This document shows, piece by piece, positions 4,046 to 64,000 of a stretch of 64,000 nt of DNA. Below the pieces are notes generated by a model that did no database searches, was not told the origin of the DNA, and saw only the letters and a list, made by a program, of their open reading frames with translations. The number at the start of each line of letters is the position of its first letter. Position 1 is the first letter of the stretch. The stretch is from contig WHVD01000057.1 in the NCBI GenBank assembly GCA_015178975.1, positions 62,001 through 126,000 of the forward strand, in the 5' to 3' direction. The translations under genes and the position numbers were made by a program. Source of the stretch: Hysterangium stoloniferum (Eukaryota > Basidiomycota > Agaricomycetes > Hysterangiales > Hysterangiaceae).

Positions 4046-4049
4046 AAAC

Positions 4050-4840
4050 ATGCCAGAACTGTTAATTCCAAAACTCGACAATCGTAACTACACTGACTGG
4101 GCTTATATGATGGAAGCACTACTCGCCGACAAGGACCTGTGGGATGTTGTTAGTGGTGACATGACTCGTCCGCCTGGTTCTGCAAACTCAAAGCCAGTCC
4201 ATGCCTTTGTGACGAAGCAGAAACTCGCCCATGCCAAGATCATCCTTCATGTCGAAATGTCACAGTTTCCCCATACACGTCATGAAGATCTGAAGATTAT
4301 TTGGGAAAGTTTGAAACAAGTCCATTGGGCCCACGGTTTCGCTACCCGTCTCACCCTTCACCGTCGTTTTCTTTATATGCAGAAGTGCGATGATCAGACA
4401 ATGAACTCCTGGATATCAGAAGTCAAAAATGCCACCTACAGATTGACTGATGCAGGTATAGATGTTCTCAAAGAAGACATTATCCTTGTGCTTTCAGCTG
4501 GCCTTCCTGACACCTACTCCACATTCATTGTCACCCTCGACTCTATCCCTCCTGACCAATTGACACTCAACAGTGTCATAACCTGTCTCATGAACGAGGA
4601 GGTGAACCATCCACTGAAATTCACCCTGACCCAGAGACTGTGCTCACCATCCACAGCAAAGGCAAACGGCCCACATCCGAAATCACATGTTTTAACTGCG
4701 GCAGTAGGGGACATTATGCTACAGATTGTTTATCTGCATCACTGCGAGGTAATCAGAAACGATTATCTAATACCACAGCCATAGCGACAGATGAAAATAA
4801 GGAGTGTACAGATACTGAGCATGTTCTCTTAGTCATTTAG
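4050..4840 (+). CDS. F gag polyprotein (UBN2-like) with CCHC zinc knuckle, frameshifted
   Basis: The first ORF (4050-4784) gives a copia-type gag. It starts MPELLIPKLDNRNYTDWAYM, typical of the DUF4219/UBN2 gag core, and continues with motifs such as MNSWISEVKNATYRL and LSAGLPDTYSTFIVTLDSIP. The zinc knuckle CFNCGSRGHYATDC (C-x2-C-x4-H-x4-C) is in another frame at about 4700-4741, so a frameshift lies between, near 4610-4640. Gag would form the virus-like particle and bind RNA. The element has no pol, so it would depend on enzymes from another copia element. It may be a decayed copy of a functional non-autonomous gag. Confidence 0.75.
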
Positions 4841-6536: not shown

Positions 6537-7002
6537 TGTTACGACCGGACAATCCCGCCGGACTCCGGGCACTAACCCGTACGCCCCCACGTGCTACAAG
6601 CACCAATCGTCTGTTTATAGGATTTCCCGCCCGGACTCCGTTATGTCAAGACTTGTTACGTTCGACCTCATTACGACACATATCAGTCACCGGACTTCCC
6701 CCGGACTCTGTCTCTGTCTATGTCCGTCTTCGTCCCACGCATCAGTCACCGGTCCCCGCTTAGAATCCCGTTACTGCTCTAATCGAGCCCCGTTCCCATT
6801 TTAGTCAAATGACCTGTCACGATTTAGGACTCCGCTCCCGCTCCGTTTCCCATTATGGGTTATGCTTTGTCACAATTCGGACTCCGCTCCGTTCCGTTCC
6901 GTTCCATTCCTAACACCAATTTGGTGTTTACTATTCCCGTTTCATGTTTTGTTAGTTTCATTTCACCATTACTGGATTTGGTATGTCATTCACTCCATGG
7001 TC

Positions 7003-7010
7003 TATATAAA
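7003..7010 (+). promoter_or_regulatory. TATA box of LTR A-a
   Basis: TATATAAA is followed by CTGGCAGATG and is identical in the other full-length A copies. It marks the probable U3/R promoter and sets the element's orientation. Confidence 0.6.
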
Positions 7011-7299
7011 CTGGCAGATGTTGTACATACAATCCAGTCAGAAAATTAGCTTAGATTCCCCCCAGTAATCTAATAATATTTTCCGCTCTAAAACCTTACT
7101 CGATTCACATCGCTCGCACTAGTCGGAGCCCACGGGCTCCGGCGCATCTATCTCTCTCAACCAACTCGACTCACGACCCACAACCTCCGACTTATGACCC
7201 ACGACCCGACTTACGACTCACGACGCACGAACCCCACCCGGACTCCCCGGGATCCCCATCCGTCCGTTTGAAATTGGACAACACGATCTAGCGAGGGCG

Positions 7300-7313
7300 C
7301 AGCCTATAAGCTG
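7300..7313 (+). ncRNA. Conserved LTR stem-loop, A form
   Basis: CAGC-CTATAA-GCTG, followed by AAGCCAAGTCCTACCGG. It lies about 290 bp downstream of the TATA box, so it should be transcribed. The same structure is seen in families B and D (loop ACATAA) and, with a compensatory CAAC/GTTG stem, in C and P. The function is unknown. Confidence 0.5.
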
Positions 7314-7324
7314 AAGCCAAGTCC

Positions 7325-7592
7325 TACCGGAAATCCTGCGGGTTTCTCCGGAAATCCTGCGGGTTTCTCCGGAAATCCTGCGGGTTTCTCCGGAAATCCT
7401 GCGGGTTTCTCCGGAAATCCTGCGGGTTTCTCCGGAAATCCTGCGGGTTTCTCCGGAAATCCTGCGGGTTTCTCCGGAAATCCTGCGGGTTTCTCCGGAA
7501 ATCCTGCGGGTTTCTCCGGAAATCCTGCGGGTTTCTCCGGAAATCCTGCGGGTTTCTCCGGAAATCCTGCGGGTTTCTCCGGAAACCCGGCC
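7325..7592 (+). repeat. 21-bp minisatellite, about 12 units
   Basis: The unit is TCCGGAAATCCTGCGGGTTTC. The copies are nearly identical. Other A LTRs have one unit (37298, 59062) or two (61115). The long minus-strand ORF with repeated FPEKPAG is a by-product. Confidence 0.9.
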
Positions 7593-7615
7593 TGTGTGTG
7601 TATCCTAACAAGGTC

Positions 7616-16296: not shown

Positions 16297-16806
16297 AGGT
16301 TCAGGGGATAATGGATTCTGGTCAGTATGTGGAGATTTTGAAGGATGAGGTGGTAGAAAGCTTTGAAATACTGGAAATGGAGGAGGACCAATGTTATGTA
16401 CTTCCAACAGGACAATGATCCAAAACATACATCTAGGAAGGCCAAACAGTGGTTTGAAGACAATGACATTCAAATAATATCCTGGCCTGCCCAGTCCCCT
16501 GATCTAAACCCCATTGAACACCTTTGGGAACATGTGATGTATCTAGTATATATTCACGAATTTTCCCTTAATTTTCCCGAATTTATTTCAATTTATTTTA
16601 TTCTATTTTATTTTATTTATTAATTCAAGAATTAGGCTATTTCCTTTTAACTTCGAATACTCAAAGCTTCGAATGACATCATATTATGTAATCGAAGCCT
16701 AGAGCGGTCGAAATATAAATATAATAAAGCCGGGTTATCTAATTTCAAGAGACCGGGTTTTTATTATATTATATTAGTACATATATGCGCATTATTATCG
16801 CGCAAT

Positions 16807-16840
16807 CACGTGACATCACGTGACGACGACGTCATGACGT
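16807..16840 (+). promoter_or_regulatory. ACGT-core cluster in LTR E1 (E-box and CRE-like)
   Basis: Two TCACGTGA/CACGTGA sites are followed by GACGTCA and TGACGT within 35 bp. They lie about 260-290 bp upstream of the TATA box, in the presumed U3. A diverged version is kept in E2 near 21270-21300. Such sites bind bHLH or bZIP factors in fungi; which factor is unknown. Confidence 0.45.
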
Positions 16841-17094
16841 GTTTACAAATCGTTGCGAGTAGTTTTCGCAGCCGCCCGGCTGCGTTTATTTCTGTTTTGG
16901 CGCCACGGCTTATTTTGCTTCCACCCTCGGCCATCCCAGGTTTATTTCCTGACTCGACCGGTTCGGATCTTCGGTTCGGATCTTTGAGTTGGGTGATAGC
17001 TATGACATCATAGCGGAATTATAGGAACTTTTAGAAGCTTCTAATAATTTCCTAATTAGTTATTTAGCTATTATTAAGCAAAAATCTCTACATG

Positions 17095-17102
17095 TATAAA
17101 AG
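17095..17102 (+). promoter_or_regulatory. TATA box of LTR E1
   Basis: TATAAAAG followed by GAGGCCTAAATCACTG. The corresponding sequence is kept in E2 near 21010. Confidence 0.6.
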
Positions 17103-17881
17103 GAGGCCTAAATCACTGAATAAATCACTACTACTTTACTACTATCAACAGCACCAGCTCAAAGCTTATCTAATCATCCTAAGGACAAAAATAGCCTTAG
17201 TCTGATATCTAACTGCAAGCATCTACACTTGCAGCATTTTGAACTCTTTCTCTTGAACTTAGCTAATTCATCTAAGTTCCCTCAGCTTCCCGGAAAACCT
17301 TTAGGCTTACTAATCACTTAAGTAAATCTAAATTCTCATTACTGAAATCCCTGCCTGTTTAGGTTATTCAAGAGCCCATTTTAACAGCACAGTTAATCAA
17401 TCTTTAAACAAACGCTTGGATATTCGACTCTCGGACAATCTCTCTATTTATAAATTATTTAACAGCTTGTTAAATCTTTATAAATAGTAAACTAAAAGGC
17501 TACAATAAAGCGAAGGCTTACGACAAGTTTCCGCCAACTTATTGTGCATACATTCAGCTCCCGAACCTTTATTCTCAAAGAGAACTTAACTTTCGTAGAG
17601 CATGTGACTACAAGTTCATCTGAATTTGTCAAGAGACCAAACAAATATTGACTTTAGTTGTTTAAGCTTAATAGCGCAGCTAATTAATCTATCAGTATTT
17701 AAATTACTGGACCTTTATTTGTTTATTTCTTGAATCCCTTGCCGTGTCAACGTTTGTTAATTATTTGAGAGAGTAAATAGCCGGATACCTTACAGAACAC
17801 CTCAAGTGTTGTCTGCAACAATACCCAACACCACCTAAAGGAGTACATAAATTATGGGACTGAGTTGTGGAGGAGTGGAAT

Positions 17882-18466: not shown

Positions 18467-18735
18467 TAGTGAGATGTATTACAATTAGAAGTTGGAGCCC
18501 ATAACCTACATATTAAAAATAGTATGAATTGACTTATTGTAAATGCACAACCTACAAGGGTTTTATAAATTTGTAATAGAAGTACTTATGTGTCAATCAA
18601 TGTGTCAGTTAGTGAGTCACCTTCTGACATGATAGTTTAGGTGTACATGGGTAAAAGTATGCATTAGCCTCAAAAACATGGTTCACAATACATATGCTTG
18701 TTCCAGGATAAAGTGGAAGGAGAGGGGTGAACTAT
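18467..18735 (-). pseudogene. copia-1 gag start and 5' LTR fragment
   Basis: The minus strand near 18469-18560 continues the gag frame toward its N-terminus but without a clear start codon. From 18630 to about 18735 it matches the left LTR (1930-2030). The outer end of this LTR has been lost. Confidence 0.6.
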
Positions 18736-18775
18736 CCCTAACCTGTTAAAAGTGTAGAAAATGAATGGTGTTATG

Positions 18776-19613
18776 TGTTATGACCAGACAATCCCGCCAG
18801 ACTCCGGGCACTAACCCGTATGCCCCCACACGCTACAAGCACCAATCGTCTGTTTATAGGATTTCCCGCCCGGACTCCGTTACGTCAAGACTCGTTACGT
18901 TCGACCTCATTACGACACATATCAGTCACCGGACTTCCCCCAGACTCTGTCTCTGTCTATGTCCGTCTTTGTCCCACGCATCAGTCACCGGTCCCTGCTT
19001 AGAATCCCGTCACCGCTCTAATCGAGCCCCGTTCCCATTTTAGTCAAATGACCTGTCACGATTTAGGACTCCGCTCCCACTCCGTTTCCCATTATGGGTT
19101 ATGCTTTGTCACGATTCGGACTCCGCTCTGTTCCATCCCGTTCCTAACACCAATTTGGTGTTTACTATTCCTGTTTTATGTTTTGTTAGTTTCATTTCAT
19201 TATTACTGGATTTGGTATGTCATGCATTCCACGGTCTATATAAACTGGCAGATGTTGTACATACAATCCAGTCAGAAAATTAGCTTAGATTCCCCCCAGT
19301 AATCTAATAATATTTTCCGCTCTAAAACCTTACTCGATTTACATCGCTCGCACTAGTCGGAGCCCACGGGCTCCGGCGCATCTATCTCTCTCAACCAACT
19401 CGACTCATGACCCACGACCTCTGACTTACGACCCATGACCCGACTTACGACCTACGACCCACGAACCCCGCCCGGACTCCCCGGGATCCCCATCCATCCG
19501 TTTGAAATTGGACAACACGATCTAGCGAGGGCGCAGCCTATAAGCTGAAGCCAAGTCCTACCGGATATCCCGTGGGTTTCTCCGGAGACCTGGCCTGTGT
19601 GTGTATCCTAACA
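18776..19613 (+). mobile_element. A-b: family A solo LTR
   Basis: It runs TGTTATGACCAGACAATCC..GTGTATCCTAACA, 838 bp, with perfect TSD TTATG at 18771-18775 and 19614-19618. It lies two bases into D1, so the first TG of D1 is on its far left. The hairpin CAGC-CTATAA-GCTG is at 19534-19547. CpG-rich, hence younger than its host. Confidence 0.9.
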
Positions 19614-20317
19614 TTATGACCCATTCCTGGATACTTCAATCTTCCATAATTATCTGTAACTTTCTGACCTAACTTCTGTCTGCAGAACATTTCTAGTTCC
19701 TGCACTTCTGAACCTCATCCTTGTTCTGTATTTGGTAACTTGTCTATTGACAAGTATCCATTCATTTACTTGTTGCACTCCCATTTTGGAATATTCATCC
19801 TAATCCACCTTATTATGATCCTAGTTTGTAGTACAATAATGGAAAAACCTATATTAGTTTCTATGCATTTGTACTCTATGTTAAGATCTAAGCTAAAAGG
19901 GGAAAGGAAGACTCTAAGTTGGGGGTCTGATGATTGGAAACAAGCTAATTGGGAGGCTGATGATAGAGATTGTACAGTACTAGTTGGGAGGTCTGACTCT
20001 ATAAATGTAGTGGAGCTTGGCTTCAACTTATGTGTTGCACCCTCATACAAACTGTCAGGGTGCTCCAGTATTTCAAACAGTGTGGATAGTATGATAGAGA
20101 CAAAGTTCAATACTTAACTCAATTGGCTGGGGGACTATGTTATGACCCATTCTTGGATACTTCAATATCTGCTATTATCTGACATATCCAACTTTATACC
20201 CTGCTCTGACTTCCACCTCAACATCCGACCCTGACCTCCAACTATGGAATATTATAGTTTCTGCATCTTCTGTATCTTCCCCTTGTTCCACATCTGGTAA
20301 CTTGTCCACTGACAAGT

Positions 20318-21575
20318 TGTAAGGTATCTGGCTATTTACTCTCTCAAATAGTTAACAAACGATGACACAGCAAGGGATTCAAGAAATAAACAAATAAAGG
20401 TCCAGTAATTTAAGTACTGATAGATTAATTAGCTACGCTATTAAGCTTAAACAACTAAAGTCAATATTTGTTTGGTCTCTTGACAAATTCAGATCAACTT
20501 GTAGTGACATGCTCTACGAAGGTTAAGTTCTCCTTGAGAATAAAGGTTCGGGAGCTGAATGTATGCACAATAAGTTGGCGGAAACTTGTCGTAAGCCTTC
20601 GCTTTCTTGTAGCCTTTTAGTTTACTATTTATAAAGATTTAACAAGCTGTTAAATAATATATAAATAGAGAGATCGTCCGAGAGTCAAATATCCAAGTGT
20701 TTGTTTAAAGATCGATTAACTGTGCTGTTAAAATGGGCTCTTGAATAACCTAAACAGGCAGGGATTTCAGTAATGAGAATTTAGATTTACTTAGGTGATT
20801 AGTAAGCCTAAAGGTTTTCCGGGAAGCTGAGGGAACTTAGATGAATTAGCTAAGTTCAAGAGAAAGAGTTCAAAATGCTGCAAGTGTAGGTGCTTGCAGT
20901 TAGATATCAGACTAAGGCTATTTTTGTCCTTAGGATGATTAGATAAGCTTTGAGCTGGTGCTGTTGATAGTAGTAAAGTAGATTATTTTATTCAGTGATT
21001 TAGGCCTCCTTTTATACATGTAGAGATTTTTGCTTAATAATATCTAATTAACTAATTAGGAAATTATTAGAAGCTTCTAAAAGTTTCTATAATTCCGCTA
21101 TGATGTCATAGCTATCACCCGACTTGAAGATCCGAACCGAAGATCCGAACCGGTCGAGTCAGAGAATAAACCTGGGATGGCCGAGGGTGGAAGCAAAATA
21201 AGCTGTGGCGCTGAAACAGAAATAAACGCGGCCGGGCAGCTGCGAAAACTACTCACAATGATCTGTAAACATGTCGTCACGTCGTCATCACGTGATGTCA
21301 CATGATTGCGCGAGAATAATGCACATATATGTACTAATATAATATAATAAAAACCCGGTCTCTCGAAATTAGATAACCCGGCTTTATTATATTTATATTT
21401 CGACTGCTCTAGGCTTCGATTACATAATATGATGTCATTCGAAGCTTTGAGTATTCGAAGTTAAAAGGAAACCTAATTCTTTAAATAATGAACAAAATAA
21501 AATAGAATAAAATAAAATAAATAAATTCCCAGAAAATTAAGGGTAATTTCATGAAAATATACTAGATACATCACA
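20318..21575 (-). mobile_element. E2: family E solo LTR, inverted relative to E1
   Basis: 1258 bp, + strand TGTAAGGTATC..GATACATCACA, with perfect TSD CAAGT at 20313-20317 and 21576-21580. It is colinear with E1 over its full length. E1 and E2, about 2.5 kb apart in opposite orientation, form a long inverted repeat. Confidence 0.9.
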
Positions 21576-22076
21576 CAAGTATTCACTCATTGTTTATTGT
21601 ATTCCCATTTTGGAATACTCCCATTTCCATCTTATTGTGGTCTTAGTTTGTAGTACAATAACAAGAAAACTTATATTAGTCTTCACAAATTTGTACTTTA
21701 CTTTAGATCTGATATCGACTTAGTTTCTTATTCCCTCTTCCATCTTTCTGTATGCTCGATATTTGGAACTCTTTGGAACTCTGAATATCCATATTTTCCA
21801 GTGTAAGTCCCATCTTTGAAATTAAGGACTCCTGAGCATTTGCATAGAGGCACAGCACATAAGCTGAAGCCAATGTCCTGACCCTATGTTACAACTGTGT
21901 TGCAACCCAACGGTCTCTGATGATACTATCATCCACCTGCACTTCAAGTTACTGGCCAAGTCATTGTATCGGGAACTGTCAGTAATCTGACACTGATGTA
22001 TACCTCCATGGTGATCAAACCCCGTTTATGCCCCTGTCAAGTTATACTTGTACCATCTGGTTATGCTTTGATACAT

Positions 22077-22872
22077 TGTTACGACCGTGTCACAACCTGA
22101 TGGTCCCCAATGATACTATCATCTGCCTGCGCTTCAGGTTACTGGTCAAGTCATCATATCAGAAACTGTCGGTAACCCAACACTGACGTATACCTCCATG
22201 GCGATCAAACCCCGTTTATGCCCCTGTCAAGTTATACTTGTACCATCTGGTTATGCTTTGATATTCCCCCTTTTACTTATGATGATCCGTTCTACTCTAT
22301 GTTTCACCTATGCCTGTATATACTTGTAACCCTTGAACTATTTCCTTTTCTTGTAATTCCACTCTTGGTTAATCACGGCCTCCGATCTTATTGTAACCTT
22401 CCAGTTTCCAGTCAAGCTTATTTGTCAATAGTATTTCTGCTCTTCCCTTAGTTAGTAGTTTCTAGATGCCGATAGCTCATATATAAACCCACTGTAGTGT
22501 AGTTACTAGGCAATCAGAATATCGACTTAGAGATACCCCTCTAATCTCCAACTCCGTTATCTATTCATGACCACCACATTCCAACTCCATCCAATTTACA
22601 ATTCAACCTACATTTACAACTTCAACCTCTAATCTCTGACTCTCAGTCTCCAACTCTCAGTCTCCGACTCTCTGACCCAACCCTCGACTTATCCTTCAGT
22701 TTCTGATTGGTAGTTTACCGAGAGGTTTACTCGACAGGACTAGTTTCTGCCTGCCCAAAATTTAAGGACACCCGACAGTAACTTGCGAGGGTGCAGCACA
22801 TAAGCTGAAGCCAAGTCCTTCCGTTCAGTCCCCATCGGTCTACCAACATCAGTCAGTTTTCTGTTCTTAACA
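22077..22872 (+). mobile_element. B-in: family B solo LTR inside B-out
   Basis: It runs TGTTACGACCGTGTCACAACC..TGTTCTTAACA, 796 bp, with perfect TSD TACAT at 22072-22076 and 22873-22877. Its host belongs to the same family and orientation. Confidence 0.9.
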
Positions 22873-22992
22873 TACATCCCCTTTTATTATGTTGATCTGT
22901 TCTACTCTATGTTTCACATATGCCCATATATACTTGTAGCTCTTGTACAATTCCCTTTTCTCATAATCCCACTCTCAGATAATCACGGCCTC

Positions 22993-23377
22993 TGTTATGA
23001 CTGGAAATCCTGCCAGACTCTGGGTACTAACATATATGCACCCACACCCTATATGCACCAATTATCAGTTTACCGGAATACCTGCTGGACTCTGTACATC
23101 AGACCTGTCCACACTCGACCTTTGTTACTTCATGTATCAGTCACTGGAATACCCACCAGACTCCGACCCATCTATGTATCACTTGACCTCTGACTTATCT
23201 ATCTCAACTCCCCGACCTCTCGACCCACAAACCCCACCTGGACTCCCCAGGATTCCTGTCCACCTGTTTGAAATTGGACAAGATGACCTAGCAAGGGTGC
23301 AGCCTATAAGCTGAAGCCAAGTCCTACCAGCTTTCCCGTGGGTTTCTCTGGAAACCCTCCATGTACACACCTTAACA
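22993..23377 (+). mobile_element. A2: short, diverged family A solo LTR inside B-out
   Basis: It runs TGTTATGACTGGAAATCC..CACCTTAACA, 385 bp. TSD GCCTC (22988-22992) and GCCTT (23378-23382) differ at one base. It keeps the A hairpin (CAGC-CTATAA-GCTG) and the segment TGAAATTGGACAAGATGAC but lacks the central promoter part of full A copies. Confidence 0.8.
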
Positions 23378-24612
23378 GCCTTTGATCTTACCATAACCTT
23401 CCAGTTCCTAGTCAAGTTTATTTGTCATTAATTGGACATTCCCACTCTTATGTACCTAGTTAGTATTTTCAAGATGCTGATAATTAGTATTTAAGTCCTA
23501 CTGCAATGTAGCTACAAGTCAATCAGAATATCGACTCAGAATACTTGTATACCTCTCTCATAGTTCCACTCTAAGTATCCTGCTCCCACCTTTGCTTGCA
23601 CTCGCTCATTCTCAGTCTCCGACCTCACAACCCCCTACTGTCCTTCAGCTTCTGATCGGTGACTTACCAAGAGGACTATTTGACAGGATTAGTTTTCTGC
23701 CCGCCTGAAATTTAAGGACATCCAATGGTAACTTGTGAGGGCACAGTACATAAGCTGAAGCCAAGTCCTTCTGTTTGGTCCCCACTGGTCTACCAACTTC
23801 AGTCAATTTTCTGTTCTTAACACCCTATCTGATAGTTTCTGAGTTCCCAGTGACTTTCTGATAGTTCTGGAATAAGTTCTGACATGGCACTTAACAGACT
23901 GAAATACTAAGAGTTGTAAAGTAAGAGTTCATGCTTGCTGAAAACTTCTTTGAGGGTATTGAAAAGGGAGGAAAGGGACTGAGAACTAATAGGGGGTAAT
24001 CTACGTTGATTTTCAAACTGAAGAACTGTAGCATACATGAAGAAGATTTTATACTACAATGGGATGGATGACCAGAGGGCTGATCAAGGAAGTGAAAGGT
24101 GAAACAGATCATGAAAAGTCAATGACAAGGCAGGAAGACTAAATGTAGGATACTAAACAATACTAAAGGGGTCTGAGGTGGCAAGTGAGACCTGTGAAAG
24201 GAGATAGTGATGGGGGAGTGAATGGGATGGAGATGGAATGGAAAACTAAAAAGGTTAACTACTATAATGAAACAAGTGTCAGGGACACCACCAGTGGTGA
24301 TACTGTACCTTGAGTGGGGGTTCTGACAGTGAGTTGACAGAGGGTTTTGAGTCTAAAACAGGTTGTGGGGTCCAAAGCAATGGGATCTGGTATCAACTTA
24401 GTTTCTTATTCCTTCCTTCTTTCTGTATGCTCAATATTTGGAACTCTGTCTTCTGGTGTAAGTCCCTCCTCTGAAATTAAGGACATTCCAAGTGTTTGTG
24501 TAGGGGCACAGCACATAAGCTGAAGCCAATGTCCTGGCCCTATCTAGAAGTTTCCAAGTTCCTAGTCATTTCCTGGTAGTTCTGGAATAAGTTCCCGACA
24601 TGGCACTTAAGA

Positions 24613-27171
24613 AATGGCCAGACTGGGAATAAAACCAGGGCTTCCAGTTTGACTCACAAAAAAAAAAAAAAATTTTGCAAGCTCAATGGACTCCAATTTT
24701 GGGAAATATGTATTTGGTATTAAAATATATATACAAAACTACAAGGTGATTGGTCAACATTTGAAGGAGCTATGAAGTTCAGAATTTTCATGCAATATTT
24801 CTGGGCATTCTAGCGCGCGCCTTACATGATGGAAACAGGGATTTTTTGGATATACATTATTAATTTATTAGCGACCCACACATTTTAAGAAATGTTAGAC
24901 CAATCTATGACGGGGATCCATCAAGGCATGAGATATCTAAAGTTACAGCAGGAATGTTTTATTGATGGGGGCAGAATGTTCTAGTAGAGCGGTGGAAACA
25001 CCTTGGCGACCAGCAGCGTTAGTTGGTGCGGCCGGAAGGTGACCCGTTGCGACCAATATTAGGTTGTGCATAAAATTTAACCCATAGATATTCCTGGCGG
25101 GGATCTCACCCCGCAAAGGCTCGGGAGTACGGAGAGTGAGCTCGGTAAGTGGGTCAGAAAAGAGGATTAATAGCATCAAATCCACACTCAAACAAACCCA
25201 GGCCAAAAAATTTTCACTCCCCTTCTAAATCCCAACTTACCTCAGATCTGCAGGCGTATTCGAACCCGAGTCAAGTTGTGTACTGATCCCGCCTCATCAA
25301 TTTTTCCTGACCCCGGTTATTACTCTTGGGGCTCCATTTATTGGCCCTGTTCACAGTGCCTGATGATTGTGGAAGCGCATCATAAATCTGATCACGTTAC
25401 ATATAAATGGTCAACGGTTTACTCAGCGGTATGTATTGGCCTAGACTCGGAGGCGGTGGCCTCTGCGTGACCGGTGTGCAGAAAGATTTGCTGGCCTGAA
25501 TTTTGAAAGTACTTGTCTTTTAGTAAGAGAGCGAGGTACGCCAACGACTGCTATTGATATTTAACTTCGAGAACTCTGGGAGTCTGTTAGTATTGATCTG
25601 AAGATGATGGATCGAAGGTGACCTTGTACGTTAAATGGTGCCGATGCTTAGCTTTGCGGGACTCTGCCTCTGGTAGTCTATTCTCATTGATTGGCCTCGT
25701 GCTGGGAAGTATCACGCTTGCAAGAAGATCAACTGCTTGACATCAAGACTTGTGAACAGGGTTTGCTCGAGTATGCCGGTACTTCTGGGAAGCGCGATCC
25801 AAAGAAATACGTAAGTCCATCACGAGACTACCGAGGATAAATCATGCTAGCAGGTATGAGCTGCGGTAATTGAAAAGACACTTTTCAAATGGTCGTTCCG
25901 GCGAGTGGACAGACCCTCCTTATTATGCAGGCATGATATCGGTGGACATCGCTTGAATGTGCTTCTTGCCGGTCTGAAGAAAGAAGAAGTGCGTGTGAAT
26001 GGAGTTTTCGGATAAAAAAATAAGTATTTACTTCAATCCGTCATCGTTAAAAAGTTTGCACTATACGCGCTGTATACGCTATACATATACGGACATACCA
26101 TCCGGTTATGTATTCGAATTGAGAACACATGAGTCCCTTACTCCTACTTTGGGAGGAACAAGGATTGGCACTCGTCCGGGTAGAATGGCGATATCGCATG
26201 TGGTTGATCAAGAGGAGGATCAAATTTAGAGCAATCATAGGAGGAGTAATGGTCAAGGTGTTGGAGTTTGATTGAGAAATTTTCCAAGCTGTCAAGCAGG
26301 TCTAGTGACGTACGCCATTGACTTACCAGAACCGATGATTTAGATCACCGGATCCATCAAGTCCATCAAGGGGCGAACGCTGGCTAGATATAGCCACGAT
26401 TGTTTAATATGAAAGTGCCAGCGAATGGATAAGATTGTCTTGGGGAGGTCTCAGATCCGAGGCACTAAAATCGAGAGTCTATCGATCGTGCCCGCGCGAC
26501 TATTCCTCATTCATAGTTGAGAGGATCCATAAAAAAATGCTCGAGACTATACCGGAAACGGATATTTTTCTGCCAACGGGAACCGGTAGGAACAAGTGGG
26601 GAGAAACGGTGAATTGTGTTTAATTCGCATGCTGGTAGGTTCATGAATGTAAATAGAAGACAAGCTCATTGGTCAACGCATATGTACGGACAGTGACCAG
26701 CGTTTTCGGTGTGAAGCGAGCGGGAGAAGGTGGCGACGGTGCAAAGCGAAATGAAGCATAATATAAAAATACATTCATATGTATACCCGCCAACACTCCT
26801 TATACCCAGCTCTCTTGGAGGGTGTGAGAGTGCTGGTAGCCGTTGTAAGTAGCGATCCAGGTGATAGCTAATGGTAATCACAAGACAGCCATCTAGATAA
26901 ATATTAAAAATACTCATAAAGCACGGAAGCTTCGGGTTCAAGCCGATCGTTCGACCACCTGAGCTCGTCGCTGAAACATCGACACGGCGTCCCCTGCCAG
27001 CTCCTGCCAGCTCCTACCTCCATCCACACTGCTAGTCCCACTGAGCATCAACAATTCACACATCATATCATCGGATCATAGTCGCTCCTTAACCTCGTCT
27101 TACTGCATCTGAGCTTCACCTCGGATTTTTCTTCCAATCATCTCCGTCTTCGACCACGACGACGGAATGGG
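24613..27171. other. Intergenic, no recognisable gene
   Basis: After the D1 TSD there is an A15 tract at about 24659 and then CpG-containing, unique-looking sequence. Short ORFs on both strands lack recognisable motifs or a splice pattern. The last 150 bp before 27172 are CT-rich, as expected for a basidiomycete promoter and 5' leader. Confidence 0.5.
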
Positions 27172-41112: not shown

Positions 41113-41951
41113 TGTTAAGTTCTGGATCTCTGGGCAGAATTTCTGGTGGATATTCCAAACACTTCTTGGAATGTGTCCATGGAGTTCCCAAGAATTAGTC
41201 CAGGAGTTTCCAGGGGTTAGTCTAGGGAGTATCAAAATATTACCAGAGTACAGGATGGACTTGGCTTCAGCTTATGTATATGCTGTGCCCTTGTACACTC
41301 ACTCAGGTGTCCATATTTCAGGAGGGTGGATATATGCTGGAATGTTTAAGGATACTTGGAGTTCCAGAGAGTTCTGGATATCGAGTGTACAGAAAGACAG
41401 AAGGGATAAGAAACTAAGTTGAGATATAAACTAATTTGAGATTAAAACTGAGGAGTAAGTTCATGACTATGGAAGACTATATAGATGTTATTGTTATTGT
41501 ACTACAAACTAGGATCACAATAAGACTGATTAGGATGATGATTCCAAAACAGGAGCACAACAAGTAAATGAATGAATACTTGTCAGTGGACAAGTTACCA
41601 AATACAGAACAAGGATGAGGTTCAGAAGTACAGAAACTAGGAATGTTCCATGGATGAAAGTTGGGTCAGAAAGTTACAGATAATTATGGAAGATTGAAGT
41701 ATCTGGGAATGGGTTGTAACAGTAATGTTCCATGGATGGAAATTGTATCAGGAAGTTATGGAAGATTGAAGTATCCAGGAATGGAGTGTAACAATATTAT
41801 CCAGGAATAGATCCTAATACAAAGTTTCTAGAATAAATACTGGGATTCCAACCAGAAGTCCAGGCCAGGAAATGACTTGGAATATGTGGAGAAGTCAACT
41901 GTCAAAGGGCAGATTCTGATGGGTTCTGGGTCATAACAGGAGGTGTCTAGT

Positions 41952-43264
41952 TGTTACGACCGTGTCGCAACCCTATCGGTCCCGAGGTTATTGCCACTTG
42001 TCAACGTTTCAAGTCATCCTCTCGGAAACCATCGGCCCCGAAGCTGACGAATGTTTTCGCGAAGATCAAACTCCATTTACACCCACGTCAAAACAACTCG
42101 TATTGTCTGGTCAAACTTTGATACGTCCCCTTTATTATGTTGATCCGTTCAATCTTATGTTTCGCATATGTCTATCTATATTTGTAGTCCTTGAACTATT
42201 TCCTTTTATTGTAATCCCGCTCTCGGTTATCATCGGCCTCCGAACTAATCATAAACTTCCCGTTCCTAGTCAAGCTTATTGTTAATACCGTGTTCCGCCC
42301 TTCTCCCCATTAGTAATTTCCAGATGCCTGTTACTTGTATATGAACCCGCTGTAGTTGTAGTTACTAGGCAATCAGAATATCGACTCAGAATACCCTCAT
42401 ACGCCTGTATCAGTCTCATACTAAGAATCCCCCCATCCACCTTCGTGTGCGCTCGCCCACTCCCGGCCCCGACCCCTTGGCCCGACGCTCGACTTGTCCT
42501 TCGATTCCGATTGGTATCACGCCGAAAGGTACTCACTAGGATTAGTCTTCGCCCGCCCAAAATTTAAGGACATCCTACGGATATTTGCGAGGGTGCAGCA
42601 CATTGTTAAGTGCTGTGTCGGGAACTTATTCCGGAACTATCGGGAAGTCACCGGGAAGTCGGGAGCAACTAGATAGGGTCAGGACGTCGGCTTCAGCTTA
42701 TGTGCTGCGCCTCTACGCAAATGCTCAATGTCCTTAATTTCGGAGGTGAGACTTATGATGGGAGTTACGGATATTCAGAGTTCCGAAGAGTTCCGAATAT
42801 CGAGCGTACAGAAAGACGGGAGAAGGAATAAGAAACTAAGTCGATATCAGATCTAAGGTAAAGTACAAATTCGCGGAAACTAATATAAGTCTGCTCGTTA
42901 TTGTACTACAAACTAAGACCATAATAAGACGGAAACGGAAGTGTTCTTAAAACGGAAATACAATAAGACATATTAGGAAGGCAATATTCCGTAACAGGAA
43001 TATAACAAACAAACGAGTGAATACTTGTCAACGGACAAATTACCAAATGCGGAACAAGGGAAGAATGTGGATGATACGGTAACTATGATGTTCCGTAGTC
43101 GGAGGTCAAAAGTCGGAAGTCAGGGATCGGAAGTCGGGAGTGGGAGACCGGAAGTCGGATATTGAAACATCCGGGAACGGGTCGTAACACACATAAGCTG
43201 AAGCCAAGTCCTTCCGATCGGTCCCTGTCGGCCACTGACATTAGTCAGTTTTCAGTTCTTAACA
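41952..43264 (+). mobile_element. B3: family B solo LTR hosting D4
   Basis: It runs TGTTACGACCGTGTCGCAACC..CAGTTCTTAACA with perfect TSD CTAGT at 41947-41951 and 43265-43269. D4 is inserted exactly in its hairpin. CpG-rich and very close to B1. Confidence 0.9.
42604..43189 (-). mobile_element. D4: young family D solo LTR
   Basis: 586 bp; the + strand runs TGTTAAGTGCTGTGTCGG..GGGTCGTAACA, with perfect TSD CACAT at 42599-42603 and 43190-43194. It splits the B3 hairpin between ACAT and AAGCTG. It is rich in CpG, unlike D1 and D2. Its own hairpin (minus) is near 42693-42706. Confidence 0.9.
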
Positions 43265-43439
43265 CTAGTCAAGGGCAGAATAATACCAGAACAGGATTTG
43301 AGTTGAAGGTACTTGAGGGATGAGGGTCAGGTTCCAGTGGGTTCCAGATCTTGATACTAGTCTGGAAGATAGTTCAGAACCTGATATGATATCTAGGAAA
43401 TACTCTGTGGAGTCTCCAGGAATGGAACTTCACAATATG

Positions 43440-45414: not shown

Positions 45415-45522
45415 TGTTAGGTGTACAACTAAGACAATAAACTTTGCAACTAGGATATATATATAGTATATAACCTCAGTTAGTCATAACCAGGTCACAT
45501 GTCCCCCTCCTTACAATTGACC

Positions 45523-45632
45523 TTCATACATACATTTCTCTGCCTACCATTAGGGTCCCTGTTCCCAACCACTATGTATCTTAGTTATGCAATGTGGTAT
45601 ATAAATGTATTAAAAATAAAAAAATAAAAAAA
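45523..45632 (+). mobile_element. LINE 3' end, + strand, with A-rich tail
   Basis: About 110 bp, ending ATGTGGTATATAAATGTATT followed by an A-rich tail (A7 and A8 runs). It is flanked by about 17-bp direct repeats (AGGTCACATGTCCCCCT and GGGTCATGTGCTCCCCC). Its body matches the other LINE end in inverse orientation. Confidence 0.7.
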
Positions 45633-45651
45633 ACTGGGTCATGTGCTCCCC

Positions 45652-46051
45652 CCTTTTTTTTTCTTTAATACATTTGTATACCACATCACATAACGTATAT
45701 ACATAGTGGTTGGGAGCAGGTACCCTAATGGTAGGTGGATAGGTATGTAGGTACTAGGGCAAGAAGGTGTGGGTATGTGGGTCAACTGTAGAGTGGAGGG
45801 AGGGTGAGAGGGCAAAGGAAAAAGAGAAAAGAAAAAGAGAAGAACTGAGGGGGCTATATCTTGCCAAAGATGTTTGAGGCTTCAATGAATTTTCCTAGAG
45901 CAGTGAGCCCTTTATGGGTTCTGAGGATGGCAGAGGGGGACAGGTCCTGAGAGGTGTCGATTAGGAGGTGGCGGTGTTCCTCATATAGAGGGCACTCAGT
46001 CAAGATGTGGTGGGACTGAATGACTGTAGTGCCACAGGGGCAGGACAAGGG
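45652..46051 (-). mobile_element. LINE 3' end, minus strand (Tad1-like C-terminus)
   Basis: A T-rich start (about T9) on the + strand is the tail. The ORF 46048-45854 reads CPCGTTVIQSHHILTECPLY, then RHLLIDTSQDLSPSAIL and GKFIEASNIFGKI. This is the Cys/His end that follows RNase H in fungal Tad1-type LINEs. It is a 5'-truncated copy of about 400 bp. Confidence 0.75.
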
Positions 46052-50655: not shown

Positions 50656-50920
50656 AATGAAAATATGAGTGAGTCGTGGGGGGGAAACGCTGAACAATCA
50701 AATGAGGACTGGAACACTGAAACATCGAACAGCCTTTATTTGGATAATTTTGAACACTCGACGCTATGATACTGCAAATTGGCTGGGGACGTACCTTCCC
50801 GTATACCGTTCTGATAAGACTGTGCCAAAATTTCAAGGCGACAAGTACCACAAACCTTGCGACCCTTTTGCTGTCGATATCTTTTACATTGGTCATATGA
50901 TCAAGACATCAATATCTTAA
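50656..50920 (+). pseudogene. Kinase-like gene fragment (duplicate)
   Basis: It opens with MSESWGGNAEQSNEDWNTE, nearly the same start as the ORF at 51762 (MSESWEGSTEKSNEDWNTG) but on the opposite strand. After a frameshift it gives KYHKPCDPFAVDIFYIGHMI, which resembles the subdomain IX region of mushroom kinase-like proteins. The end forms one arm of an inverted repeat. Too short to be a kinase. Confidence 0.6.
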
Positions 50921-51079
50921 TCATATGACCAATGTAATAGATATCGACAGCAAAAGGGTCACAGGTTTCATGGTACTTGTTGCGTTGAAATTTTGGTACA
51001 GTCTTATCAGAACAGTAAGTGGGAAGGTCCATCACCAGCACATTTCCAATATTATAGCGTCAAGTGTTCAAAATTATCC
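50742..51079. repeat. 169-bp perfect-register inverted repeat with almost no loop
   Basis: Arms 50742-50910 and 50911-51079 pair symmetrically about 50910.5 without any net gap and with roughly 85% identity by eye. Both arms carry the kinase fragment (CDPFAVDI[FY]YIGHMIK). Confidence 0.85.
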
Positions 51080-51321
51080 AAATAGTATTTCGGAGGCAAA
51101 TGTCACCAGTCGACGCTCGCGTCTTGCGCAGTTTGGACATTTGCACAGCCTTGGGGGGGATGCATCACCTTGATGTTACTCACCGTACAATTCCTACAGA
51201 CGTGAGGATTAATTCAACTTCATGATGGTTAGCTGGGGAAATTCACCGATGGGCAACCTTGTTCTCATGCAGAAATTGTATGCCCTACGCAGTCTCATAC
51301 TAAGTGTACCCGTGAATTGAA
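51080..51321. other. Spacer, nothing recognised
   Basis: Unique sequence between the inverted repeat and the kinase-like ORF, with no motif or repeat noted. Confidence 0.4.
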
Positions 51322-56875: not shown

Positions 56876-59061
56876 AAGTCAAGCTCCACTTGTTTTTAGA
56901 ACTGGAGTTGCTGGTTAAGTACATATATAATGACCTTTTGGACCTCTATTTTCTCCTTTCCCATGTTGTCCCACTCTTAACACTTACACTTTGGTATAAC
57001 CTTTTGTCATTCAATTGTTTCATTCCATATTGTTCTTCTATTCTTTCCACATTAGTCTTTTTATGCTTTCACACATTGAGGGCTCCCCATTTGTTTGAAC
57101 ATGTACTCTATTTCCATCTTCCCATGTCTAGTATAAATCATAAACCACCCATCCCCAATTTGAATATTGACTTTAGAATTTCCCTTATTATCCTTTAAGC
57201 TTGAATGGTAATATTTTTCAGCCCTGGAGTATTGTTTTGTACTGTTATAACTCTTCTCTAAGTCATTGGCCTCACTGTGGCTTAGTATTTAGTAACTCCT
57301 AGTATCTGTAGTTGCCAGTAACAAAGAAAATTGTTATGTTTTGGTCTTAACATATTTAATCCTTGTATTTGAATTATTAAAGCACCTAAATAGTTATGTG
57401 AAGATGCAATAGATACATAATTGAAGCCATGCTCTACTTGTCCTAAGCCAAATAGAATTGCTAGCAATTTACCTACTAACTTCAATGAGTCTTATTTCTT
57501 AGCAGTACAGTTGTATCTGTTTTTAAAATCCCTCTCCCATGTTTAGAAGTTGATGGAATAACACCTTCATTTGTTTTAAAGTAATATTTGTACTGCTTAA
57601 CTTAATCCTTTTGCTAGTGTCTGGCAAGATTGAGACTTATGTACTCTCTTTGCAACTTTAGCCTTGGATCCCAATTTATAGCTAAGTGTCATTATACATC
57701 CTGCTATATACTTTGTTACTTGTTTTGAAGTACTGGAGTATCTGACAGTTTTGTGCAGGTGCAACATATTTTATGTTGAAGTCAAGCTCCACTTGTCTTT
57801 AGTAACTGGAGTTTTTTCCCACTCTTAACACTTCCCTCTAACACTTCCACTTTGGGATAACCTTTTGTCATTTAGTTGTTCCATGCCACATTTCTCATCT
57901 ATTCCTTTCAGAGTCTTTTTATATGGTCACATCACATTGAGAGCTCCTGTATATTCTGAACCCTATGGAGGATAACCCAAAACTTTAAAAGTTATTTATC
58001 CACTAAAGTATATATATTTATATTGTTTGTTGTAAAATTAATATTTAATCAAATTCAGCCTATCAGATGGTGTTCTGGAGAATAAGGAAATATTAATATT
58101 TATCTTGTATCTGACAAAAGTTAGTCAAACAAACATATATAGATTATCCTTTTGGGGATAAATTCCACAACATGGATTGGTTGGCCAGATAGTTCTGGTG
58201 AACTTTCTAAACCAAATAAATTTAAATTATATGAACTATATTTGAAAGTTTGCATAATATACAAGAGAATCCATCTTATCCCAAAGATTAAGTCATAACC
58301 TGAGTAATTTTTATTAACTATAATGTTCGTGGACATTTTAAAAGTCATGGAGATGCTAGAGAATGTATTTTATCCCAAAGATTAGGTAACAACCCAGATA
58401 ATCTTGTATAACCATGACATTTGTGCATATTTTAAGGGAGTGTACAAGTCTTAAAGATGAAGTTTTGGGTTAATGAAATATAAATCCTTAAAACATGTAG
58501 TCATAGCCAGGAGAAATAGTCTTACTTAAAAATATGAGGAGTTTTTCATAAAATTTTGTGTATTCAATGAATTGTGACTATCCTCCTATTTAGTTTGTAT
58601 AGATATTCTATTGCCCTCTTGTCCATTCCACTCACCTCTTTGATTTTTTTTAGTATAAATCATTGTTTTGTGAACTATTTGTCTTCAGTGTGAATATTGA
58701 CTTGTAATTTCCTTTATTGCCCTTCAACCTTGCATGGAATTATCTTTGGGCTTCTGGAGTATTATTCTGTATCACTATAAATCCTCTCTAAGTCATTGGT
58801 GTTATGACCGTGTCATAACCCATGTCACAACCCGACGGTCCCTGAGAATACTACAGTCTATCGATGTTCCAAGTTATTGATCAAGTCATCATTTCGGCAA
58901 CCTTCAGAACACCGACACTGATGTATACCTTCATGGCGATCAAACCCCATTTACGCCCCTGTCAAAATATACTTGTACCATCTGGTTATGCTTTGATACA
59001 TCCCTTTTCATTATGATGATCTGTTTTACTCCATGTTTCACATATCCCCATATATACTTGT

Positions 59062-59901
59062 TGTTACGACCGGACAATCCCACCAGACTCCAGGCACTAA
59101 CCCGTACACCCCCACGCGCTACAAGCACCAATTGTCTGTTTATAGGATTTCCCGCCCGGACTCTGTTACGTCAAGACTCATTACGTTCGACCTCATTACG
59201 ACACATATCAGTCACCGGACTTCCCCCAGACTCCGTCTCTGTCTATGTCCGTCTTTGTCCCACGCATCAGTCACCGGACCCCACTTAGAATCCCATCACC
59301 GCTCTAATCAAGCCCTGTTCCCGTTTTAGTCAAATGACCTGTCACGATTTAGGACTCCGCTCCCGCTCCGTTTCCTGTTATGGGTTATGCTTTGTCATGA
59401 TTCGGACTCCGCTCTGTTCCGTTCCGTTCCTAACACCAATTTGGTGTTTACTATTCCCGTTTCATGTTTTGTTAGTTTTGTTTCGCCATTACTGGATTTG
59501 GTATGTCATTCACTCCATGGTCTATATAAACTGGCAGATGTTGTACATACAATCCAGTCAGAAAATTAGCTTAGATTCCCCCCAGTAATCTAATAATATT
59601 TTCCGCTCTAAAACCTTACTCAATTCACATCGCTCGCACTAGTCGGAGCCCACGGGCTCCGGCGCATCTACCTCTCTCAACCAACTCGACTCACGACCCA
59701 CGACCCCCGACCTACGACCCACAACCTCCGACTTACGACCTACGACCCACAAACCCTGCCCGGACTCCCCGGGATCCCCGTCTGTCCGTTTGAAATTGGA
59801 CAACACGATCTAGTGAGGGCGCAGCCTATAAGCTGAAGCCAAGTCCTACCGGATATCCCGCGGGTTTCTCCGGAAACCCGGCCTGTGTGTGTATCCTAAC
59901 A
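59062..59901 (+). mobile_element. A-d: family A solo LTR
   Basis: 840 bp, TGTTACGACCGGACAATCC..GTGTATCCTAACA, with perfect TSD CTTGT at 59057-59061 and 59902-59906. One 21-bp unit; TATA box and A hairpin present. Confidence 0.9.
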
Positions 59902-60239
59902 CTTGTAGCCCATGGACTATTCCCTTTTCTCATAATCATGCTCTCGGCTAAATCTCGGCTTCCAATCTTATCATAACCTTCCAGTTTCTAGTCAGTTTTA
60001 TTTGTTAATCGTGTTTCCGCTCTTCCCTTAGTTAGTAGTTTCCAGACACCAATAACTTGTATATAGACCCACTGTAATGTAACTACTAGACAATCAGAAT
60101 ATCGACTTAGATTGACTTAGATACCCCTCTAATTTCTGACTCCATTATCTATTCACAACCACCACATTCCGACTCCATCCGATTTACGATTCAACCTACA
60201 TTTACAACTTCAACCTCTAATCTCCAACTCTCAGTCTCC

Positions 60240-60356
60240 AACTCTCTCAGTCTCTGACTCTCTCAGTCTCTGACTCTCTCAGTCTCTGACTCTCTCAGTC
60301 TCTGACTCTCTCAGTCTCTGACTCTCTCAGTCTCTGACTCTCTCAGTCTCTGACTC
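60240..60356 (+). repeat. 16-bp tandem repeat in LTR B6
   Basis: About seven units of CAGTCTCTGACTCTCT. B-out and B-in have only one or two related units at this position. Confidence 0.85.
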
Positions 60357-60559
60357 TTGGTCTCCGACCCTCAGCCCAACCCTCAACTTATCCTTCAGTT
60401 TCCAATCGGTAGTTTACCAAGAGGTTTACTTGACAGGACTAGTTTCTGCCTGCCCGAAATTTAAGGACACCTGACGGTAACTTGCAAGGGTGCAGCACAT
60501 AAGCTGAAGCCAAGTCCTTCCGTTCGGTCCCTGTCAGTCTACCAACATCCATCAGTTTC

Positions 60560-61034
60560 TGTGAAGAGTGGTAGAAGTTCAGACCGTTCTATATACGAAG
60601 AAATGAGTAGAAAGGAAGGATATTGACCTATTCGGTGCAATATAAGAGAAAGTGAGAGAAAGAGCACAAGATGACGAAGGAGTCAGTGAAGTGCAATGGT
60701 TCGAGTGGAGGCCTCGACTATTACAGTTCGAGGCCAGAAGTGTTTAGTAGTTCAGATATTGCTACTTATGTAGTAGCTGACACGTTACCCTGATCACTGC
60801 TCGTAGTAGACCTAGTTTGTGTCTTACGAGTGGTGGTTCTTGGGTTAAAGTGTGTCTGAGTTTTAATTGGTGCTGAGTGCACCCACAAGTATACACAATG
60901 CTTCGAACTAATGAAATATGCAAGATTCGAAGAATATGAAAGATAGAAAAATATGAATAAAATATGTAAAATATAAATGAAATAAAAGGAGTGTTTTACT
61001 ACAATGATACTGTGGTAAAAGCATACTCCTCACA
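60560..61034 (+). mobile_element. G4: family G LTR without TSD
   Basis: 475 bp, TGTGAAGAGTGGTAG..CTCCTCACA, very close to G1. The flanks GTTTC and GTGCC differ. Right of it the sequence is neither B6 nor P, so either a deletion removed the right flank or this is the 5' LTR of a longer element whose rest is gone. Confidence 0.8.
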
Positions 61035-63095: not shown

Positions 63096-63429
63096 ACGAG
63101 TTCCATGTACCCAGGAGGGGAAAGAGCCCGTGTCCATTGGCGAAATACTGTCAGGGCACAGTGTTGCGTGGCCAGAGGACTACAGGTGCGTCGATGGGTG
63201 TGAGAAGGATGCTCATGAATTTGACCGTGAGAGATGAGCGCATCAACGCAACTCGCAAATTCGACCACAAATGACAAGCGCGTTGGCGTGGCTCATGAAC
63301 TCCATTAGAAGTCAGCATCCGTCGGTGAGGTCATTGAGGCATGGTGTTATGCAGCCCGTGAGCTACAAGTGCATCAATGTAGTATATCTTCAAGCTGTGC
63401 CCCCACACCGTATTTGCGCACCCGTGTAG

Positions 63430-63945
63430 CACAAGTTGCGCCCTCATGTAGCCCAGTCGCATGGTCGTACCGTTGCACAGTCGCACCATCACGCAGTCGC
63501 GCCGTCGCGCTGTAGCACAGTCGTGCAGTCGCGCCATCACGCTGTAGCACAGTCGCGCAGTCATGCCGTTGCGCACCCGTGCAGCGTGGTCGTGCGGTCG
63601 CACCCTCATACAGCGCAATCGTGCAGTCACACCGTCGCGCTGTAGCACAGTCGCGCAGTCGCACCGTTGCGCACCCGTGCAGCGCGGTCGTGTGGTCACA
63701 CCCTCGTACAGCGTGATTGCGCAGTCACACCGTCGTGCAGTCGCACCGTCGCACTGTAGCACAGTCACGCAGTCGCGCCGTCGCGCACCCGTGCAGCGTG
63801 GTTGTGCAGTCGCGCACTTGTACAGCGTGATCACATAGTCACACCGTCACGCTGTCGCACGGTCATACAGTCGCGCCGTCGCGCACCCGTGCAGCGTGAT
63901 CGTGCGGTCGTGAACTCTTGCAGCGCAGTCACGCAATTGCACCAT
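63430..63945. repeat. GC-rich minisatellite, unit about 60-70 bp with short sub-repeats
   Basis: Imperfect units of GCAGTCGCACCGTCGCGC, then TGTAGCACAGTCGCGCAGTC, then GCGCACCCGTGCAGCG. The short core CAGTCGC(A/G)CCGTCGC is repeated many times. Long ORFs on both strands (such as 63834-63331) are products of the repetition. Confidence 0.85.
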
Positions 63946-64000
63946 CATACCCCGTCCCTCTATTTTTTGACGTTCCTTTGAAACAACCTCTGCTAGACCA

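Follow-up and report, generated by a model that had tools for sequence, protein, structure and literature searches.

A nest of solo long terminal repeats (LTRs), five levels deep and comprising eight members, occupies positions 18769-24612 of the stretch of Hysterangium stoloniferum DNA analysed here (the window, 64,000 nucleotides long, i.e. contig C508:62001-126000), and the relative order of the insertions can be read directly from the way in which the members enclose one another: D1 > C2 > D2 > B-out > {B-in, A2}, with A-b within D1 and E2 within D2 as side branches. We are highly confident that the nest was built by repeated integration of LTR retrotransposons into earlier LTRs, followed by LTR-LTR recombination. 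Nested LTRs are a familiar type of genomic fossil, of which this stack is a well-preserved and unusually clean representative. The members and their target site duplications (TSDs) are as follows.

18769..24612, plus strand: D1, outermost member, family D; own sequence 18769-18775, 19619-19883 and 24384-24612 (501 nt); TSD AATGG at 18764-18768 and 24613-24617.
18776..19613, plus strand: A-b, family A, 838 nt, 7 bases inside D1; nearest genome copy 96% identical; TSD TTATG at 18771-18775 and 19614-19618.
19879..24383, probably minus strand (from the strand of a motif shared between families): C2, family C, in D1; own sequence 19879-20137 and 23902-24383 (741 nt); left TSD copy probably CTCTA at 19874-19878.
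20138..23896, plus strand: D2, family D, in C2; own sequence 20138-20317, 21581-21886 and 23828-23896 (555 nt); TSD with one mismatch, GACTA at 20133-20137 and GACTG at 23897-23901.
20318..21575, minus strand: E2, family E, 1258 nt, in D2; nearest copy 96% identical; TSD CAAGT at 20313-20317 and 21576-21580.
21887..23822, plus strand: B-out, family B, in D2; own sequence 21887-22076, 22878-22992 and 23383-23822 (745 nt); TSD CCCTA at 21882-21886 and 23823-23827.
22077..22872, plus strand: B-in, family B, 796 nt, in B-out; TSD TACAT at 22072-22076 and 22873-22877.
22993..23377, plus strand: A2, A-type, 385 nt, in B-out, with an internal deletion of about 370 bp; TSD with one mismatch, GCCTC at 22988-22992 and GCCTT at 23378-23382.

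The outer limits of the nest are exact. A 5-bp TSD is recognisable on seven of the eight members (five perfect, and two, those of D2 and A2, with one mismatch), where the ends for D2, B-in and A2 were adjusted by 1-3 bases by eye from the computed output. The LTRs show TG...CA termini apart from two decayed ends, i.e. that of D1, which reads ..AAGA, and the right end of C2, which is deleted. The residual lengths sum to 5819 bases and, together with the 30 bases of duplicated target site, to 5849; subtraction of the five bases (19879-19883) that are assigned to both C2 and D1 yields the 5844-base span, all of which is explained by the eight LTRs and the duplicated target sites, with no remainder. 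In addition, the genome (111 Mb in 554 contigs) was searched for empty sites: once the insert is removed, all seven inner insertion junctions are crossed by uninterrupted genome copies (from 7, 23, 24, 20, 18, 37 and 39 sources, respectively), with the proviso that the junction for A-b lies only 7 bases from the end of D1. Chance is not an issue here, because identities between the query pieces and genome copies are 88-96%. The first-pass annotation, made from the letters alone, had proposed a five-level nest of solo LTRs at this location, seven TSDs and the order D1 before C2 before D2 before B-out before B-in and A2. The limits hold against the genome copies, with the start of C2 placed at 19879; all seven TSDs are present, and nesting and empty sites bear out the order.

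The one edge that required closer inspection is the right edge of C2. D1 is 85% identical to an uninterrupted copy across residues 1-499, and C2 is 86-88% identical to three other genome copies. C2 starts at 19879 with TGTTAAG, the start of family C in the genome copies, and the family ends in CTAACA. C2 halts at GGGATC and D1 continues at GATCTGG, so that the last ~6 bases of C2 have been lost together with its right TSD and about 5 bases of D1. A deletion of about 20 bp between two GATC microhomologies is apparently the simplest account of the lost end. GATCT had been considered as the TSD of C2 and was dropped, given that family C runs from TGTTAAG to CTAACA in the genome copies. The internal deletion of A2 is visible in a comparable way: A2 matches the genome in two pieces only (best 90% over 169-385), and these pieces, 1-177 and 169-385, sit about 370 bp apart in another copy on contig C528.

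The families to which the members belong were traced to longer elements by searches for paired LTRs, in which 40 places were scored per family query. Family D yielded six pairs on the same strand, four with a spacing of 6.94-6.95 kb and the others with 8.2 and 9.6 kb; one pair was read and carries the Pfam domains RVT_1, RT_RNaseH and Integrase_H2C2, in that order. Family A yielded one pair, 9.3 kb apart, with rve and Chromo domains (Pfam) between the LTRs and a Tf2-1-like SH3 domain also in the element. The outer flanks of this pair are both GATTC, as expected for an intact insertion, and its inner flanks are the internal ones shared with other copies. Family B yielded four pairs 7.5-9.6 kb apart, and the one that was read contains broken pol-like frames on the matching strand, as judged by eye against the D frame rather than by Pfam. 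Families A, B and D are therefore paired-LTR elements around pol-like sequence, with the Ty3/Gypsy domain order in D and a chromodomain in A; as the interiors were read in 2.5-kb stretches, no single element shows both the RT-RNaseH/integrase order and the chromodomain. In A and D, moreover, the primer binding site (PBS) adjoining the LTR shows 11 nt of complementarity to the inner part of the element's own LTR (A position 495, D position 336), as expected for self-priming, the putative start of the transcript being placed by this complementarity.

For C and E the status of LTR is probable. What weighs against it is that no same-strand pairs of C or E at 4-15 kb occurred among the 40 places scored per search, that no full-length element of either family was found in the genome searches, and that for E the case consists of TSDs and a polypurine flank common to two copies. 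An alternative is that some members are short non-autonomous elements resembling terminal-repeat retrotransposons in miniature (TRIMs) or miniature inverted-repeat transposable elements (MITEs), which never contained internal regions. C and E are the most plausible candidates, and it is the absence of pairs that speaks for such an origin; nevertheless, we consider it unlikely. C has the leader motif of the other LTRs and TG..CA-type ends, and its ends and TSDs fit an LTR (e.g. GTTAT/GTTAT in one genome copy, by eye). A perfect TSD was seen by eye in 5/5 copies of E, and of ten others seven have a TSD that agrees in 4-5 of 5 positions. Furthermore, a purine-rich, polypurine-tract-like flank, AAAAGGAAGAGGGGATTT, lies directly before the TGTGATG end in two E copies from different contigs (L118 and L130), as in a 3' LTR; it is because of this flank that E2 is read as antisense. 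A second E-family LTR at 16533-17794 forms an inverted pair with E2 (20318-21575), 95% identical and about 2.5 kb apart, each with its own TSD, which constitutes a potential large hairpin or inversion substrate.

Integration of LTR retrotransposons into earlier LTRs has further to be weighed against the possibility that part of the stack was not built in place but copied as a block from elsewhere by segmental duplication. The region is rich in repeats, the inverted E pair lies nearby, and block copies do exist in this genome: one A insertion with the same flanks occurs on two contigs (L005 and L008), and a B-family pair (L040 and L051) has near-identical flanks, both being duplicated or allelic assembly segments. 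We nonetheless hold a block copy to be very improbable, since a separate TSD accompanies every layer except C2, A-b and B-in share TSD and flanks with none of the 29 further copies of A and of B, respectively (which bears on those two layers), and the likeness of the two E elements stops at the element ends, the neighbour of E2 having its own TSD. A tandem duplication combined with an assembly error, by which the repeated B, D and A segments would have arisen, might be suspected from the 187 nt that B-in and B-out share almost side by side at 87%, but is hardly credible in view of the 13-31% by which the repeats differ, their distinct TSDs and the clean empty sites.

The history of the stack by successive LTR integration runs as follows. 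Members of families A-D (Ty3/Gypsy in type wherever pol could be recognised) and of the separate family E inserted into LTR copies that were already present. D1 was the first to arrive and received C2 and, in an independent event, A-b; C2 in turn received D2, which took up B-out and, independently, E2, and B-out received B-in and A2. After or between these insertions, LTR-LTR recombination would have removed the internal regions, leaving one LTR with its original 5-bp TSD in each case. We infer this step, which had also been put forward in the first-pass annotation, from the fact that the TSDs are intact and the internal regions absent; the timing of each loss is likewise conjectural. A later small deletion apparently took the right end of C2, and A2 has its internal deletion. 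Targeting of silent repeats by the chromodomain, which was seen in A only, would explain why new copies landed in old ones.

A deep stack made up almost wholly of solo LTRs had been regarded as unusual, since each member must have lost its internal region. Judged by the sampled copies, it is less unusual than that. Among 30 A copies (A-b included) 24 are flanked by a perfect 5/5 TSD; each of the remaining six has a shared inner flank, GTATTTTCTGAC in four cases and AAAGGGAGGATAC in two, which makes them the ends of longer elements. Among 30 B copies (B-in included) 21 have a 5/5 TSD and three a 4/5 TSD, one of which (L050) is doubtful. Both samples consist of the copies most similar to A-b and B-in instead of a random draw, TSD ends were set at the best match in a 25-base range, a procedure biased towards scores of 3-4/5, and independent copies are somewhat fewer, as L005/L008 represent the same site twice and L040/L051 nearly so. 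Solo is thus the common state in the sampled A and B copies (24/30 and 21-24/30), and a chain of solos is unsurprising. Nesting is frequent as well: at least 12 of the 49 copies whose TSD scores 4/5 or higher (25 A and 24 B, including A-b, B-in and one A copy with 4/5, L020, that is really the 3' LTR of the full-length element and has no host) sit inside another LTR of families A-F (7 A, 5 B). This is a lower bound, the library being small and A-b itself failing the 12-base criterion that was used. Assuming independence, ~24% per step over four steps amounts to ~0.3% per element, that is some tens of stacks among the 8514 genome copies of the leader motif discussed below.

Because the order of insertion is set by geometry, the stack is a natural time series on which molecular clocks can be tested. 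The first-pass annotation expected ages to fall with nesting depth when dated by divergence, and on raw terminal branches this fails. The maximum-likelihood terminal branches, which are upper bounds and depend on the sampling of relatives, are 0.089 for D1, 0.062 for C2, 0.078 for D2, 0.106 for B-out (0.079 with closer relatives, a run of 10 sequences), 0.081 for B-in (0.063), 0.045 for A2, 0.027 for E2 and 0.037 for A-b; one C copy (L072) does not figure in the set behind these values. They are not ordered by depth, which counts against a simple agreement of age and position, and the identity to the nearest copy misorders the members too (88% for B-in, 94% for D2); raw divergence was consequently rejected as a measure of age, and total divergence fails as a clock in this stack. 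The changes are mostly CpG transitions. For instance, A-b and its nearest copy are separated by 36 transitions and no transversions, and 33 of the changes fall in CpG columns.

When CpG decay is treated apart, the expected order stands in part, in that five of the seven host-insert relations are as expected by each of two measures and the other two are near-ties. The first is the smallest non-CpG distance among the relatives listed, which is 0.067 for D1, 0.054 for C2, 0.041 for D2, 0.043 for B-out, 0.044 for B-in, 0.035 for A2, 0.018 for E2 and 0.004 for A-b. The second is the ratio of observed to expected CpG, i.e. 0.06 for D1, 0.04 for C2, 0.16 for D2, 0.30 for B-out, 0.64 for B-in, 0.30 for A2, 0.99 for E2 and 1.11 for A-b. 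The CpG ratio of the insert also exceeds that of its host in every one of the 12 nests identified at the sampled loci (B-in is one of them) and in both other nests of the window that were examined, namely a young D LTR in a B LTR at 41951-43265 and an A LTR in a B LTR at 58820-60562.

Several observations weaken the agreement. The non-CpG distance is reversed by 0.001-0.002 for D2/B-out and B-out/B-in, and CpG retention is marginally reversed for D1/C2 (one CpG each) and B-out/A2. Contrasts in CpG between neighbouring members are often non-significant by Fisher's test (D1/D2 p 0.62, C2/D2 0.32, D2/B-out 0.37); lower values are obtained for B-out/B-in (0.03), D2/B-in (0.003), D2/E2 (4e-5) and D1/A-b (9e-10). 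Three of the hosts among the 12 nests are short (60, 119 and 198 nt) and contain no CpG. CpG content is, moreover, confounded by family (18 of 18 C copies have a ratio of at most 0.21, and 33 of 33 A copies one of at least 1.06), and part of the CpG order therefore reflects which family inserted when. With this reservation, CpG retention broadly tracks insertion order, which fits methylation-driven decay of silenced repeats.

A more novel lead than the nest itself is an element of about 60 nt, R1, that is common to LTR families A-D, has covarying stems and resembles a folded RNA. R1 is present once in every A-D LTR of the nest, seven in all, and none is reported in E2.

22764..22822, plus strand: R1 in B-in.
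19508-19562, 21825-21881, 23274-23328, 23714-23772 and 24480-24537, plus strand, and 20009-20067, minus strand: R1 elsewhere in the nest.

A model of R1 has 26 hits in the window at a cut of E 0.01, seven in the nest and 19 elsewhere, 14 of the 26 being training rows. Copies of the R1 core are widespread: a 23-place core pattern occurs 8514 times in the genome, as compared to 0 for the reversed pattern, and many of these copies would lie in solo LTRs. The families were compared pairwise, using one LTR per family and a cut of E 0.01. The core matches are 42 nt at 88% for A/B, 29 for A/C, 31 for A/D, 35 for A/F, 29 for B/C (plus a second match of 23 nt), 31 for B/D, 25 for B/F and 23 for C/D. 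C and the additional family F match over 87 nt, and D and F over 381 nt at 67%, F therefore being a distant relative of D; family E had no match to the others. In A-D the core starts 72-152 nt before the inner end of the LTR, and in A and D it lies downstream of the putative self-priming site.

R1 sequences were gathered by an exact core, ATAAGYTGAAGYC, which makes invariance of the core true by construction; the enclosing stem P1, the 5' strand of the hairpin and the cross-family matches are not fixed by this way of collection. The 146 hits gave 115 distinct segments, of which 51 were kept and 33 hand-picked for alignment, leaving out redundant copies and those cut by deletions or junctions. 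In these 33 sequences 91.1% of the cells pair, versus 82.9% (standard deviation 1.0) in shuffles and 15-44% in slid versions; 45 cells are changed on both sides, versus 18.5 in shuffles, and the covariation score is 0.302 versus 0.170. None of 500 shuffles reaches the observed value for any of the three, the counts stemming from about five lineages that are non-independent. The number of covarying pairs (reached by 186 of 500 shuffles) and of pair types (252 of 500) shows no excess. Between family types, P1 exchanges A-U/U-A, G-C/A-U and A-U/G-C, and in the hairpin A-U takes the place of G-C. Pairing holds in 81% of the cells of P1; pair 6-64 fails in 15 of 32 sequences, and in six rows of family D the register of P1 is shifted, which weighs against this stem. 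Folded singly, sequences of B, C and F form a three-way junction, those of A an extended hairpin and those of D a third variant, and one fold for all families was rejected on these grounds. Because the fold z-scores are weak (-0.2 to -2.4), the case for R1 rests on covariation and position.

None of the 4227 Rfam models has a gathering match in the window, with one weak hit in 18700-24700, ZNFX1-AS1_2 at 23292-23399 (E 0.5, far below the gathering score), and the literature searches found no paper on R1. Chances are about even, in our judgement, that families A-D and F, which are otherwise hardly alignable, carry an undescribed structured element in the transcript leader, located between the putative self-priming site and the PBS, that selection keeps although the LTRs have diverged almost everywhere else. 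Its predicted fold would comprise P1 enclosing a conserved hairpin, GGYRCARC-loop-GYUGAAGCC, and its position suggests that it may act in first-strand priming or packaging. A shared leader motif of this kind would mark old LTRs of these elements independent of family, and would form a concrete target in studying how self-primed retrotransposons start reverse transcription.

Elsewhere in the window, a family-A LTR near 6537-7610 has a short tandem duplication (7327-7465 repeated at 7453-7591, 98.6%), and an open frame at 4047-4784 encodes a copia-type gag domain (Retrotran_gag_2, E 1.5e-26); seven of the 16 open frames of the window were run against Pfam and the six others had no match. Self-complementary (palindromic) stretches occur at 50737-51084 (~350 nt) and 45496-45779 (~285 nt), and overlapping internal repeats that are 64-72% alike at 63414-63947.

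Nested LTR retrotransposons are known from plant genomes, maize among them, which are a natural case for comparison. In Jedlicka et al. (2020; PMC7251063), nested LTR elements of plants are described, nesting is used as a measure of relative age, solo LTRs are attributed to ectopic recombination, and nested elements are more diverged than their hosts in 1042 of 4126 pairs. The nest described here is alike in the insertion of LTR into LTR; it differs in that all members are solo, which precludes dating by LTR pairs, and in that CpG retention gives the clearer order. Self-priming, for its part, is a property of Ty3/Gypsy chromoviruses of the Tf1/sushi type. Such self-priming chromoviruses are mentioned in PMC3601003 and PMC2864245. 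The likeness to them, short of an assignment to a clade, consists of the chromodomain and Tf2-1-like SH3 domain in A and a PBS complementary to the own LTR in A and D. The genome of Tuber melanosporum is, according to PMC4165359, rich in transposable elements and dominated by Gypsy, with methylation of transposable elements that prefers CpG, no repeat-induced point mutation and more C>T changes in methylated elements. The CpG decay in the nest, read from the DNA letters only, fits the repeat methylation reported there. Lastly, REANNOTATE (PMC2672092) and TinT (PMC3014933) reportedly order the activity of transposable elements from nesting by the same logic that is applied here, using genome-wide statistics where we have used a single stack.

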